A stretch of 30,902 nt of DNA, taken from contig JAUXFG010000034.1 of the NCBI GenBank assembly GCA_030620115.1, positions 1 to 30,902 of the forward strand, written 5' to 3'. Below the pieces are notes generated by a model. The model saw nothing but the letters and a program-made list of their open reading frames with translations. It ran no database searches and had not been told where the DNA came from. Shown here piece after piece: positions 26 to 30,742 of this stretch; the first letter of the stretch is position 1; the number at the start of each line of letters is the position of its first letter. Position numbers and translations under genes: made by a program. The DNA comes from Candidatus Fermentibacterota bacterium. Lineage in GTDB: Bacteria; JAFGKV01.

Positions 26-60
26 TCCCGCGTCGGACGCGGGATGAGAAGTTCGGGCTA
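26..60. repeat. Truncated copy of the CCCGGACTTCTCA palindromic element
   Basis: A perfect 7-bp stem (TCCCGCG at 26-32, CGCGGGA at 38-44, loop TCGGA) is followed by GATGAGAAGTTCGGGCTA. This matches the right arm of the perfect palindrome at 6903-6953 and the right end of the element inside truA (7736-7920). Only the right arm is present. Just upstream, GAGCGTAACGA (13-23) also matches, in reverse complement, the interior of the truA copy, so this is probably a decayed long copy running off the window edge. Confidence 0.6.
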
Positions 61-6902: not shown

Positions 6903-6953
6903 TAACCCGGACTTCTCATCCCGCGGCGGACGCGGGATGAGAAGTCCGGGTTA
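6903..6953. repeat. Perfect 23-bp palindrome (short copy of the CCCGGACTTCTCA element)
   Basis: The arm 6903-6925 (TAACCCGGACTTCTCATCC...) is repeated exactly in reverse complement at 6931-6953, with loop GCGGA. The tips TAaCCCGGA...TCCGGGtTA match the ends of the element inserted in truA (7736-7920) and the partial copy at 26-60. No T-run follows. The 204-base gap between the zinc-ribbon gene and truA otherwise holds only small hairpins such as CCTCT/AGAGG at 7023-7036. Confidence 0.8.
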
Positions 6954-7065: not shown

Positions 7066-8058
7066 GTGCCAAGGATACGACTAATCATCGAGTATGACGG
7101 TTCACTGTTCTCCGGATGGCAGAGACAGTCGGATCGGAGAACGATTCAGGGCGAGCTTATGGCCGCGCTCTCCACTATCTATGGTGCTGCCATCGTGCCT
7201 ACTGGATCCGGAAGGACCGATTCAGGAGTCCACGCATTCGAACAGATCGCCCACGCCGATATCCCCAAGGCAATGAACCTTGCCGCCGTCAAACGATCCT
7301 TGAACGGCCTCTTGCCACCGGACATCCGGATACACGGAGTGTCTGGTGTTCCGGAGGACTGGGACGCCAGACGGCACGCACTCGCTCGGTACTATGAGTA
7401 CAGAATAGCTCTGAGACCCACCGCCCTCGAGAGAGCCCGCATGTGGATAGTCACCCAACCACTGGATGTTGAGGTGCTTCGAGGCTGCGCATCATTGCTT
7501 GTTGGATGGCATGATGTGGCCGGTTTCTGCAAACACGATCCGGCTCGTGACACCTACAGGACCCATTTCCATGGCGCCCGGTGGCTCTCTGCCGCACATG
7601 AGCTACGATTTCAGATCTGTGCATCGCATTTCTATCATCGCCTTGTGCGCAGATTGGTAGGCATGCAGGTTGACCTTGCCCGAAGAGCAGAGGGCATGAA
7701 CCGCTTTCGCGACGCGCTGGCAGGCGGCAGAAGCTTAGCCCGGATTTCTCACCAGCCTTCTACTACAACGACGGATATGGCACCGCCTGCCTCGTTACGC
7801 TCTGTCGGTCGCCCTCAGCGTATCGCAGAGGATACGCCTTCGGCCGGCCTCGGTCGCAAGCCTTGCGGGCAATGCCATCTCAGCCATTTCGCGACGAAGG
7901 CCGGTAAGAAGTCCGGGCTAGCTCCCTGTGCGCCTCCACAGGGGCTGAGCTTCATTGGCCCTATCTATCAGGACGAGACCGTGGATCCGGAAAACCTCAC
8001 CCATATGGTGTGGGAGGTTATGGCTCGAAGGTTCCCTTCTTCCCGACCCCTGCCTTGA
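7066..8058 (+). CDS. truA: tRNA pseudouridine(38-40) synthase TruA with a 61-codon insertion
   Basis: Isomerises uridines 38-40 of the anticodon stem to pseudouridine; cytoplasmic. The catalytic Asp is D52 in GRTDSGVHAF, preceded by IEYDGSLFSGWQRQ near the N-terminus; FYHRLVRRLVG (about 202-212) and the C-terminal APCAPPQGLSF block are also normal. The protein has 330 residues against about 250-270 for the family. The excess sits at about residues 224-285, between GGRSL and APCAPPQGL, which are adjacent in ordinary TruA. That stretch is low-complexity and coincides with a palindromic DNA element (7736-7920). The frame is kept and the conserved C-terminus follows, so the gene looks functional rather than broken. 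The start is GTG 7066, weakly preceded by GAGTGA. The 3' end overlaps convergent iadA by 41 bases. Confidence 0.93.
   Translation: MPRIRLIIEYDGSLFSGWQRQSDRRTIQGELMAALSTIYGAAIVPTGSGRTDSGVHAFEQIAHADIPKAMNLAAVKRSLNGLLPPDIRIHGVSGVPEDWDARRHALARYYEYRIALRPTALERARMWIVTQPLDVEVLRGCASLLVGWHDVAGFCKHDPARDTYRTHFHGARWLSAAHELRFQICASHFYHRLVRRLVGMQVDLARRAEGMNRFRDALAGGRSLARISHQPSTTTTDMAPPASLRSVGRPQRIAEDTPSAGLGRKPCGQCHLSHFATKAGKKSGLAPCAPPQGLSFIGPIYQDETVDPENLTHMVWEVMARRFPSSRPLP
7736..7920. repeat. Palindrome-ended element inserted in frame within truA
   Basis: The left end TAGCCCGGATTTCTCACC and right end GGTAAGAAGTCCGGGCTA are inverted repeats with two mismatches in 18. The tips match those of 6903-6953. TAGC occurs at both edges (7736-7739 and 7919-7922). 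Removing one repeat plus the interior takes out 183 bp (61 codons) and restores a standard TruA junction (RSL-APCAPPQGL). The interior carries GTTACGCTC, which matches, in reverse complement, the sequence beside the copy at the left window edge. Confidence 0.75.
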
Positions 8059-11483: not shown

Positions 11484-11580
11484 AGACCAAATTTGAGGCA
11501 AACCTGTGCCCCAAAACTGCGAACTCATTCTTCAGCGAACCCTGCCCTCCTTCTCATTCCTGCGTCCCCTCTCCCCGCCC

Positions 11581-11681
11581 AGATTCTTCGGGCGCTCTGC
11601 TCCCTCAGAATGACACGCGATTCCACATCCTTCTGGGAGCTGTCACTGTCATTCTGAGTGACTGCAGGGAGCGAAGAATCT
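11581..11681. repeat. 101-bp palindromic element, copy 1
   Basis: It starts AGATTCTTCG and ends CGAAGAATCT. The inner ends CTCAGAATGACA (11604-11615) and TGTCATTCTGAG (11647-11658) are also inverted, so the two 35-nt arms pair at base and tip with an unpaired middle. The interior is 31 bases. Relative to the copies at 14831 and 30400 it is in the opposite orientation (type a arm left, type b arm right). Length is exactly 101 bp, as in the other two full copies. Confidence 0.75.
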
Positions 11682-11859
11682 CTCTTCATTCCTATATCCC
11701 ATCATTCCATTGTTCCATTCTGCGCCACCATTCCATCACTTCAGTTCCCCAATCGCGCCTGCCGGCCGGCAGACAGGTAGCGAAGCGGCAAGCACTACCA
11801 AGCATCGGAAAGCCTTATCAGCATCCAATTCTCTCGATAAATCCCCTCCAGTGAAGAGA

Positions 11860-14810: not shown

Positions 14811-14830
14811 AATCCCGGTCGCAACGAGAG

Positions 14831-14931
14831 AAATTCTTCGCTCCCTGCGCTCGCTCAGAATGACAGTGGGAGTGCCTATGTGGATGTGTGAATGCCTGTC
14901 ATTCTGAGGGAACGGAGCGACCGAAGAATCT
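14831..14931. repeat. 101-bp palindromic element, copy 2
   Basis: The left arm is 14831-14865 (AAATTCTTCGCTCCCTGCG...AGAATGACA) and the right arm 14897-14931 (TGTCATTCTGAGGGAACGG...GAAGAATCT). The interior is 31 bases. It is exactly 101 bp, in the same orientation as the 30.4-kb copy and inverted relative to the 11.6-kb copy. The 452-base gap 14664-15115 holds no gene. Confidence 0.78.
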
Positions 14932-14974
14932 GGGAGGGGAGAAGTGGGGAGAGAAGCGAAGTGCTTGAATGAGG

Positions 14975-20142: not shown

Positions 20143-20364
20143 CACACCCATCGTCCTGACCTGAAACTTCCTCCCCACTTCCATGTTGAATGTTGAATGT
20201 TCGATTCGTCACGGCGTAGTCGATAGACGAAGACGGATGTTCGATGTTCAAACCTCCCCCAAACTTTCCCTCCCCTCCTCCCAAAAACCTCATCGCGAGC
20301 TTCATCGGGAGCCTCATCGATTTCCCAAAAATCCCTTCCCAGATTTCTTCAATTCATACCAAAG

Positions 20365-20578
20365 GGCCACGGTCTCTCGTGGCCGCCGTTGGCGCAAATA
20401 CCTCCGGACGTGACGGAGCACGTCCCTCCACTACACAATACGCTCACATCCCCCGCTGGAGGGCCATGCTCCGTCATGGCCGCCGTTGGCGCGAATACGA
20501 CCGGACGCGACGGAGCGCGTCCCTCCATAGGACAATACCTACACATTCCCCGCTGGAGGGCAATGCTCCGTCATGGCC
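20365..20578. repeat. BIME-like REP array, left segment (five hairpins)
   Basis: Alternating REP and inverted REP hairpins. The plus units are at 20365-20384, 20462-20481 and 20559-20578; the inverted units are at 20406-20425 and 20503-20522. A plus unit reads GGAG, then GGCCATG, loop CTCCGT, CATGGCC. The inverted unit read on the minus strand is GGAG, GGACGTG, loop CTCCGT, CACGTCC. The plus-plus period is 97 bp. The stems covary: GGACGTG/CACGTCC at 20406 becomes GGACGCG/CGCGTCC at 20503. A GGAG tetranucleotide 5' to each stem is the expected RAYT recognition mark. The rest of the 20089-20651 gap holds simple repeats and no gene. Confidence 0.85.
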
Positions 20579-20651
20579 ATTGATCTCGCGACACAGTACT
20601 TTGGAAGCGCTGGTTTCATAGGCGGCTCCATACCCTACCGGGAAATGAACA

Positions 20652-21131
20652 ATGGCTGAAGCGCTACGAAGACGCCGCTCTCCCGTGCATTACCCACCTC
20701 GCATTGACCATGATCGCCCCATCATCATTTTCCTCACCGTGTGCACCGCGGCAAAGAAACCAATCCTGGCAAATGACGAGACACACAATCTTCTCCTGAG
20801 CGCTTGGAGTGACGCTCGTGCCTGGCTCGTCGGCCGTTACGTCATTATGCCCGATCACGTGCATCTGTTCTGCGCTCCAGGTTCGATGGATGCTACAACT
20901 CTGGCTCGATGGGTCCGGTATTGGAAAACATTGGTATCCCGCCGGTGCCCACGGCCTCAAGAGCAACCGATATGGCAGAAATCATGCTGGGACACGCAGC
21001 TCCGCCGTGGCGAAGCATATGCCGAGAAGTGGGAGTACGTGCGGCATAATCCCGTCAGAGCCGGGCTGTGCGAGGATCCCGAGGCGTGGCCATACCAAGG
21101 CGAAATCAACGTTCTGGCCTGGAGAGATTGA
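20652..21131 (+). CDS. REP-associated tyrosine transposase (RAYT, Y1/HUH family)
   Basis: A 159-residue single-strand DNA transposase of the TnpA-REP type. The HUH motif is His69-Val-His71 (MPDHVHLF). The catalytic tyrosine is probably Tyr129 in WEYVRHNPVRAGL, the family's Y-x3-N-P block. Such proteins cut and join REP hairpins carrying a 5' GTAG or GGAG. Here the gene lies inside an array of GGAG-marked hairpins (20365-20578 and 21138-21545). The protein is intact and at the short end for the family. ATG 20652 has no clear Shine-Dalgarno sequence. It is probably a domesticated or semi-mobile gene maintaining the REP family. Confidence 0.92.
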   Translation: MAEALRRRRSPVHYPPRIDHDRPIIIFLTVCTAAKKPILANDETHNLLLSAWSDARAWLVGRYVIMPDHVHLFCAPGSMDATTLARWVRYWKTLVSRRCPRPQEQPIWQKSCWDTQLRRGEAYAEKWEYVRHNPVRAGLCEDPEAWPYQGEINVLAWRD

Positions 21132-21137
21132 AGGCTC

Positions 21138-21545
21138 GTTGTCATGGTCGCCGTTGGTGCAAATACCCCCGGACGTGACGGAGCACGTCCCTCCACAGGA
21201 TAATACGTACACATCCCCCGCTGGAGGGCCACGGTCGCTCATGGCCGCCATTGGCGCAAATACTTCCGGCCGCGATCCGCCGGCTGGCGGACATCCCTCC
21301 ACAGGATAAGACGTACACATTCCCCGCTGGAGGGCCATGCTCCGTCGTGGCCGCCGTTGGTGCAAATACCTCCGGACGTGACGGAGCACGTCCCTCCACA
21401 GGATAAGACGTACACATTCCCCGCTGGAGGGCCATGCTCCGTCATGGCCGCCGTTCGTGCAAATACAACGGACGCGACGGAGCGCGTCCCTCCACAGCAC
21501 AAGACGATCACATTCCCCTCTGGAGGGCCACGGTCTCTCGTGGCC
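21138..21545. repeat. BIME-like REP array, right segment (eight hairpins)
   Basis: A degenerate half unit (GTCATGGTCGCCGTTGG, about 21141-21157) is followed by the inverted unit 21171-21190, plus 21227-21246, a divergent inverted unit about 21266-21299 with a nested TCCGCC/GGCGGA hairpin, plus 21333-21352, inverted 21374-21393, plus 21429-21448, inverted 21470-21489 and plus 21526-21545. The period is 96-97 bp apart from one 106-bp interval at the divergent unit. The linker text (CCGTTGGYGCAAATAC and ACACATTCCCCGCTGGAG) is conserved with the left segment. No gene is seen here before 21743. Confidence 0.85.
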
Positions 21546-21742
21546 GCCGCCACCGCTAACCCACAGATATCGATCGAAGGCCTCACCTACTCGGCTCCCA
21601 GATGGTCATTGGTACACAAACACTAGTCTTGACCGCCTGCGAATCGGAGATGAGAATGCGGGCCACATCGAAACCTATTGAACGAAACATTAGCGTGCAA
21701 CACGAATGCACCGCACACGCTACCGGCTCTGGGGAGAACGAG

Positions 21743-30126: not shown

Positions 30127-30399
30127 AATAGCTCCTCCTTATCTGGTCTCAATCAGCCCTCACACCGATCTACACCCTTGGACATCTTGAAATCCGAACT
30201 GTGACAGATGGGCAGCCTTCCTTCCGTTGATTCATGGGGTCGGCAGCAAGCTGCATGCCGATTCGCTATCAATAAGGACTGTTTAAGTCACTCGTTACGA
30301 GGTATGAGGTGCCCATAATCGAACAGCGCAATGTCCATGATCGGACAACCAGAGGAGATGTTGGTTTTAATCGATCTGTCATCTTGCGTCCAACAAGAG

Positions 30400-30500
30400 A
30401 GATTCTTCGCTCCCTGCGGTCACTCAGAATGACAGGGGTTTCAGGCAGAGATATGGGCCACAGTGTGTCATTCTGAGGGAACAGAACGACCGAAGAATCT
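30400..30500. repeat. 101-bp palindromic element, copy 3
   Basis: The left arm is 30400-30434 (AGATTCTTCGCTCCCTGCGG...GAATGACA), the right arm 30466-30500 (TGTCATTCTGAGGGAACAG...CGAAGAATCT), with a 31-base interior. It is exactly 101 bp, like copies 1 and 2. The interior differs from theirs, so the length is conserved more than the central sequence. The surrounding 30127-30822 holds no supported gene. Confidence 0.78.
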
Positions 30501-30568
30501 GGGAAGGGAGGAGGTGGAAGAGAGCGTGCAGCGTGCACGCGTGCAGATGATAGAATGGGGGCAAGAAG

Positions 30569-30603
30569 AGATTCTTCGCTCCCTGCGCTCACTCAGAATG
30601 ACA
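30569..30603. repeat. Solo half of the 101-bp element (type b arm)
   Basis: AGATTCTTCGCTCCCTGCGC...AGAATGACA matches the left arm of copies 2 and 3, but no right arm follows at the usual 31-base distance. It is probably a remnant or a single-arm insertion beside copy 3. Confidence 0.65.
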
Positions 30604-30742
30604 ACGCAGCGGAACACGCGCGTCCGTGTGAGGAAGTCACTGCCGTTCAGTCTATCCCCTGCCTAACCACTTCCCCGTGCAGATTCCTGCTGTTCGCTTA
30701 CCACTCCTATTTCTTCCACAACCATGCCGACAGAATGCGATA

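Follow-up and report, generated by a model that had tools for sequence, protein, structure and literature searches.

The truA gene of a Candidatus Fermentibacterota genome very probably carries a non-autonomous, MITE-like palindromic element that inserted at a TA dinucleotide and is translated as an insert of 61 codons. The gene was analysed within a window of 30,902 nucleotides, the whole stretch of DNA under study, and the features are collected in Table 1. The open reading frame, which carries PF01416, scores 145.2 bits against TIGR00071 (NCBIfam), where the cut-off is 142.85. Within it, the element is bounded by two arms of 25 nt that are 88% complementary and separated by a spacer of 135 nt, and, folded as RNA, it is very stable (-86 kcal/mol, z = -6.0). 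The initial annotation had described an 18-bp imperfect inverted repeat around a segment of 185 bp; the length of the segment stands, and the arms are longer than had been described. The TAGC that it had read at both edges is present, but represents the terminal inverted repeat (TAGC...GCTA), and no more than TA is duplicated at the target. In agreement with a further claim, in-silico excision of 183 bp, which leaves one TA, restores a stop-free TruA of 269 codons that reads ...AGGRSLAPCAPPQGLSFIG... (the rejoined junction is also given as ...AGGRSLAPCAPPQGLSFIGPIY...). With the element in place, one of the six frames is open through the truA copy, namely the TruA frame, and the P-x-G-L motif at the C-terminus is intact, as had been noted. 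A tryptic peptide within the insert is IAEDTPSAGLGR. A comparison of the window with the known RNA families in Rfam gave no match.

Table 1. Position of truA, of the inserted element and of related palindromes in the window
Feature	Position	Strand	Description or basis
truA, tRNA pseudouridine(38-40) synthase	7066..8058	+	330 aa with insert; TIGR00071, PF01416
Palindromic TA-bounded element	7736..7920	+	185 bp including both TA, net 183 bp, 61 in-frame codons
Left terminal inverted repeat TAGCCCGGATTTCTCACCAGCCTTC	7736..7760	+	Inverted-repeat search
Right terminal inverted repeat GAAGGCCGGTAAGAAGTCCGGGCTA	7896..7920	-	Inverted-repeat search
Target duplication TA, left copy	7736..7737		Family-wide TA ends, YTAR context
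Target duplication TA, right copy	7919..7920		Family-wide TA ends, YTAR context; excision of 183 bp
Retained TruA C-terminus with conserved A-P-P-x-G-L motif	7921..8055	+	Alignment columns P290, G293 and L294 kept
51-bp perfect foldback element, same tips, TCCCGCGGCGGACGCGGGA centre	6903..6953		Intergenic, upstream of truA
Half copy of the 51-bp element (second arm and centre)	26..60		Families D13 and I6

The insert is missing from the TruA proteins of other bacteria, as the initial annotation had predicted for relatives. The window TruA was aligned with its counterparts from 11 other genomes, one of which, G001, belongs to the same family of bacteria. None of these 11 proteins has the inserted residues, and the gap of 60 columns that each shows coincides exactly with the element. 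Every position that is invariant in this alignment of 12 proteins, GRTDxGVH included, is intact in the window protein, and the C-terminal P-x-x-G-L motif 3' of the insert is kept. The closest TruA found in the search, that of G011, is only about 40% identical, and the nearest genome, which merely belongs to the same family, has a TruA 30-35% identical to that of the window. The empty site is seen at the protein level, in 11 relatives that are too distant for an empty site at the DNA level. Judged from these sequences, the 185-bp element is an insertion in truA, and the surface loop that the initial annotation had predicted for it would, by its position in the alignment, follow the last helix region of known TruA and precede the final strand region. 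An AlphaFold model of TruA with the insert, based on a two-row alignment, was poor (mean pLDDT 41.5) and was discarded.

The element is one of many copies in the same genome. A DNA search returned 48 stretches matching it with 100-77% identity, and the 18-nt tip pattern TARCCCGNAYTTCTCAYC (the tips of the element are also given as TARCCCGNAYTTCTCACC) was found 645 times (305+340) in the 4.1-Mb genome with at most two mismatches, against 0+0 for a reversed-pattern control; these counts place the element far beyond chance. Two other palindromes of the window, at 26-60 and 6903-6953, had been reported to match its tips, and both were found to share them. A sample of 540 kb chosen without regard to coding context holds 67 element matches, a density that is approximate, the sample consisting mostly of contigs C1-C33 together with several contigs known to bear copies. 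The sequence collected in all amounts to 1.09 Mb and is a copy-enriched, non-random sample, enriched partly for truA-like copies. Subfamily A measures 185 bp (net 183), subfamily A' measures 197 bp (net 195) and has a mini-hairpin of 19 nt in place of 7 nt, and the large subfamily B measures 183 bp (net 181).

Among 103 paired elements in the 1.09 Mb, TA is found at the left end of 77, at the right end of 72 and at both ends of 59, and the flanking bases give a YTAR consensus. Tests on these pairs favoured a TA duplication over a duplication of 4 bp, the few non-TA pairs being unable to separate target duplication from terminal repeat. A 4-bp target duplication (YTAR) was also considered, and is not convincingly supported: the base beside TA pairs across the element, as part of the inverted repeat.

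The element fits best the description of a non-autonomous, IS630-like MITE that duplicates a TA within YTAR targets. It is short and bounded by paired arms (185 bp with arms of 25 nt), its copies are numerous and dispersed, and its target duplication, TA, has a fixed size. No autonomous parent with the same ends was found among the long tip-flanked segments examined in the 1.09 Mb. Autonomous parents of MITEs are often lost, so that a missing parent does not exclude membership in this class. A duplicated TA is found with both IS630 and Tc1/mariner elements, CTAG being the preferred target of IS630 (PMC2170065 and references therein), which, together with the TA duplication in YTAR, suggests an IS630-type origin of the element family. 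The family thus resembles the IS630/Tc1-mariner group (ISY100, IS630) in its TA target duplication and in its CTAG-like target, YTAR in this case (PMC2170065). It differs in coming from genomes with no match to the DDE_3 transposase PF13358, either in the whole window genome or in G274 and G120, the two other host genomes.

Reading through the element is limited by its own ends. The TruA frame is free of stops in 19 subfamily-A copies and in one fragmentary copy (20 of 20), and the remaining five frames contain stops in most subfamily-A copies. The tips account for two closed frames in the forward direction, through a TAG at the left tip and, in the right arm, a TGA for which the truA copy has TAA, and the symmetry of the ends tends to close two frames likewise on the opposite strand. 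In subfamily A, the third frame of that other strand is interrupted by stops further inside, the interior being stop-free on one strand only. Since the tip stops close two forward frames, read-through is possible only when the target TA occupies codon positions 2-3 and, with a single open frame, an insertion into a gene survives only in a single combination of orientation and codon phase. About one sixth of random TA insertions into genes would therefore be expected to keep the frame. A more far-reaching proposal, which is conceivable but doubtful, is that the terminal repeats act as a frame filter, where the stops at the tips leave one read-through frame per strand; the family would then be pre-adapted to genes and would have spread across distant bacteria, repeatedly lengthening conserved proteins.

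In-frame insertion in several unrelated conserved genes is certain in the case of truA, and roughly four to six more copies seem to be read in frame within other genes, in the same strand and phase as in truA, a count from a sample partly enriched for truA-like copies and not a genome-wide figure. Such copies, which the initial annotation had suggested looking for, are likely in gpmI (C45), C43 and C266, and possible in C276 and C155. In gpmI (TIGR01307, 419.8 bits), the profile match begins just past the element, and an ATG with a purine-rich, Shine-Dalgarno-like stretch lies upstream of it, which would give an insert of 65 residues after MATTEALKLSA; an alternative TTG start downstream of the element may be used instead. 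C43 encodes a BNR/sortilin-type exported protein of 892 codons with the insert after a signal-peptide-like start, and C266 holds a membrane ORF of 507 codons or more, with 284 codons before the insert and 161 after it, that gave no Pfam domain. The element of C276 stands at the N-terminus of a glycosyltransferase of family 2, and that of C155 follows the signal-peptide-like start of a small exported ORF. Elsewhere the element ends the protein: the C-terminus and stop codon of an RND adaptor in C233 and of an O-antigen ligase in C122 both come from it. Most other copies are intergenic, as classed by open-frame lengths.

Two copies in long open frames, C207 (35.5 kb) and C108, were excluded as coding copies, as they probably lie just upstream of the true start; in C108, as in C276, the start codon may lie downstream of the element. 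Codon-usage scoring of the flanks was also tried as a means of separating genic from intergenic copies, and was not discriminating, truA itself being scored as 'none'.

It is unlikely that the insertion inactivated truA, leaving a young pseudogene whose frame is open by chance. The truA copy does look recent, being 94% identical to the copy in C263 and having one private substitution, and most of the 20 aligned subfamily-A copies with the same frame open lie outside recognisable genes, so that openness alone is no proof of use. However, the phase and strand found in truA are the single in-frame combination of the six, the conserved residues of the enzyme are kept on both sides of the insert, and the genome has one PF01416 gene, the truA with the insert, and no second truA. 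The initial annotation had named two outcomes that would speak against its reading, namely close relatives that all carry the same 61 residues with no palindrome, and genomic copies never found in coding frames together with a truA reduced to a pseudogene; the relatives lack these residues, other copies appear in coding frames, and the gene is open and single-copy.

It is less probable still that the family has been selected for read-through and that its basic linker peptide is a domesticated module. This proposal draws on the common frame and orientation of all coding copies, on the lengths of the subfamily-A variants checked, most of which are divisible by three (net 183, 195 and 204), on a copy in G274 with 69% identity from end to end, in which the same frame is open, and on the pI of the encoded peptide (10.4). 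The 69 private substitutions across copies, read in the truA frame, nevertheless fit the neutral expectation, with 49 non-synonymous (46.1 expected) and 18 synonymous changes (19.4 expected) and no stops against 1.4 expected (P = 0.23), which leaves purifying selection on the encoded peptide unsupported. In addition, subfamily B shifts the frame, the A-like copy C223, at about 193 bp, is not a multiple of three, and the insert peptide has no match in Pfam. As purifying selection on the peptide is not seen across copies, the simplest reading is that the insert would be tolerated rather than functional. Lastly, a repeat-mediated mis-joining of contigs that placed the element in truA is hardly credible, for although the genome is a draft of 296 contigs, several of which end at or near such elements, the flanks are two halves of one TruA that rejoin exactly at TA, and a false join between two repeat copies would not put a single gene back together.

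For a MITE-like element inserted and translated within truA, the following course of events may be proposed. A transposase of the Tc1/mariner (IS630) type would have moved the element in trans, and one copy would have landed at a TA in truA, where the net gain of 183 bp, a multiple of three, left TruA intact on both sides. Copies in the wrong phase or orientation within genes would have been purged, or lie between genes, and those whose phase is right and whose site is a permissive loop or terminus would have been kept as near-neutral additions. From its sequence, TruA with the insert would be expected to stay active, and a special function for the added peptide would be unnecessary.

Beyond this genome, a search of 290 genomes found the tips 216 times in G274 and 102 times in G120, against 4 and 3 in controls. 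Both genomes are outside the window's own family, and their relation to the window genome is labelled only as 'same domain'; in the two further genomes from the window's own family, the tip counts are near the control level. The repeat family is wider than one lineage, by way of horizontal spread or of old common descent. A copy in G274 (L159, contig C123, 1139-1324) stands one codon past an ATG, in frame with the exported M28 peptidase that begins there. The element gave no match in plasmid and phage collections. Nine viral contigs contain the tip pattern, several of them at contig ends, and two that were read by eye showed nothing decisive. In L164, L169, L170 and L171 (IMG/VR), the tip lies about 100 bp from the contig ends, as if assembly had broken at a repeat, and some of these may be bacterial fragments.

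The best known coding palindromes are the Rickettsia palindromic elements (RPE), repeats of about 100-150 bp that form long stem-loops and occur both between genes and in frame in conserved genes; at least 19 genes hold an RPE in frame, and a Gmk with an RPE is translated and active (PMC2229807, PMC10969869). The initial annotation had proposed a comparable case in an unrelated lineage, and the in-frame copies in truA and likely in other genes bear this out. Like RPE, the family described here consists of palindromic repeats that are both intergenic and in frame within conserved protein genes, but it differs in its unrelated lineage, its uniform TA target duplication, its hundreds of copies and its host gene, truA. 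The element would accordingly not be filed as an RPE, as both host and ends differ and the likeness is one of behaviour.

Correia/NEMIS, ERIC and RUP, the TA-ended MITEs, share terminal inverted repeats, TA ends, stable hairpin transcripts and high copy number with the truA element, as compared by description, and ERIC also carries an open frame (PMC2229807); unlike the truA element, in-frame insertion in conserved genes is not their usual state. The Wolbachia WPE and the coding palindromes of Methanocaldococcus jannaschii are alike in having coding capacity, and some of them are reported to lie in frame in genes. QMITE1/2 from Coxiella are likewise MITEs with coding capacity, QMITE1 encoding basic peptides, but mostly touch gene ends or hypothetical genes. 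All of these are other families, in other hosts.

In-frame coding palindromes have so far come mainly from Rickettsia, Wolbachia and one archaeon, and the truA element adds an independent family from another lineage, with hundreds of copies and a simple mechanical rule of tolerance (one strand, target TA at codon positions 2 and 3). Together with the copies in G274 and G120, it opens a way to study the frequency with which conserved enzymes are extended by mobile elements, and it raises the question of whether a TruA bearing the insert modifies tRNA.

Other repeats were observed alongside this family. A second dispersed inverted-repeat family, TGTCATTCTGAGGGA...GAAGAATCT, is found in the window at 77-134, 11571-11686, 14827-14954 and 30395-30607. 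At 20318-21549, repeats of about 97 bp flank an ORF of 159 aa (20652-21131) with an HVHLF motif, which gave no Pfam match at 1e-3 and by eye resembles a REP-associated (RAYT-type) transposase. Tiny palindromes are also present: TCCCGCG(N)CGCGGGA occurs 80 times in the 1.09 Mb, 56 of them in or near larger elements, and TCCGCCAGCTGGCGGA occurs 44 times, 15 of them so placed, against 0-1 for five control hairpins in each case. They occur, for example, at 26-60 and 6903-6953 of the window and in L013, L024, L015, L019 and L032; they are nested in the larger elements and seem to overwrite the sequence that they enter, with 19 nt taking the place of 7, or 19 that of 19.
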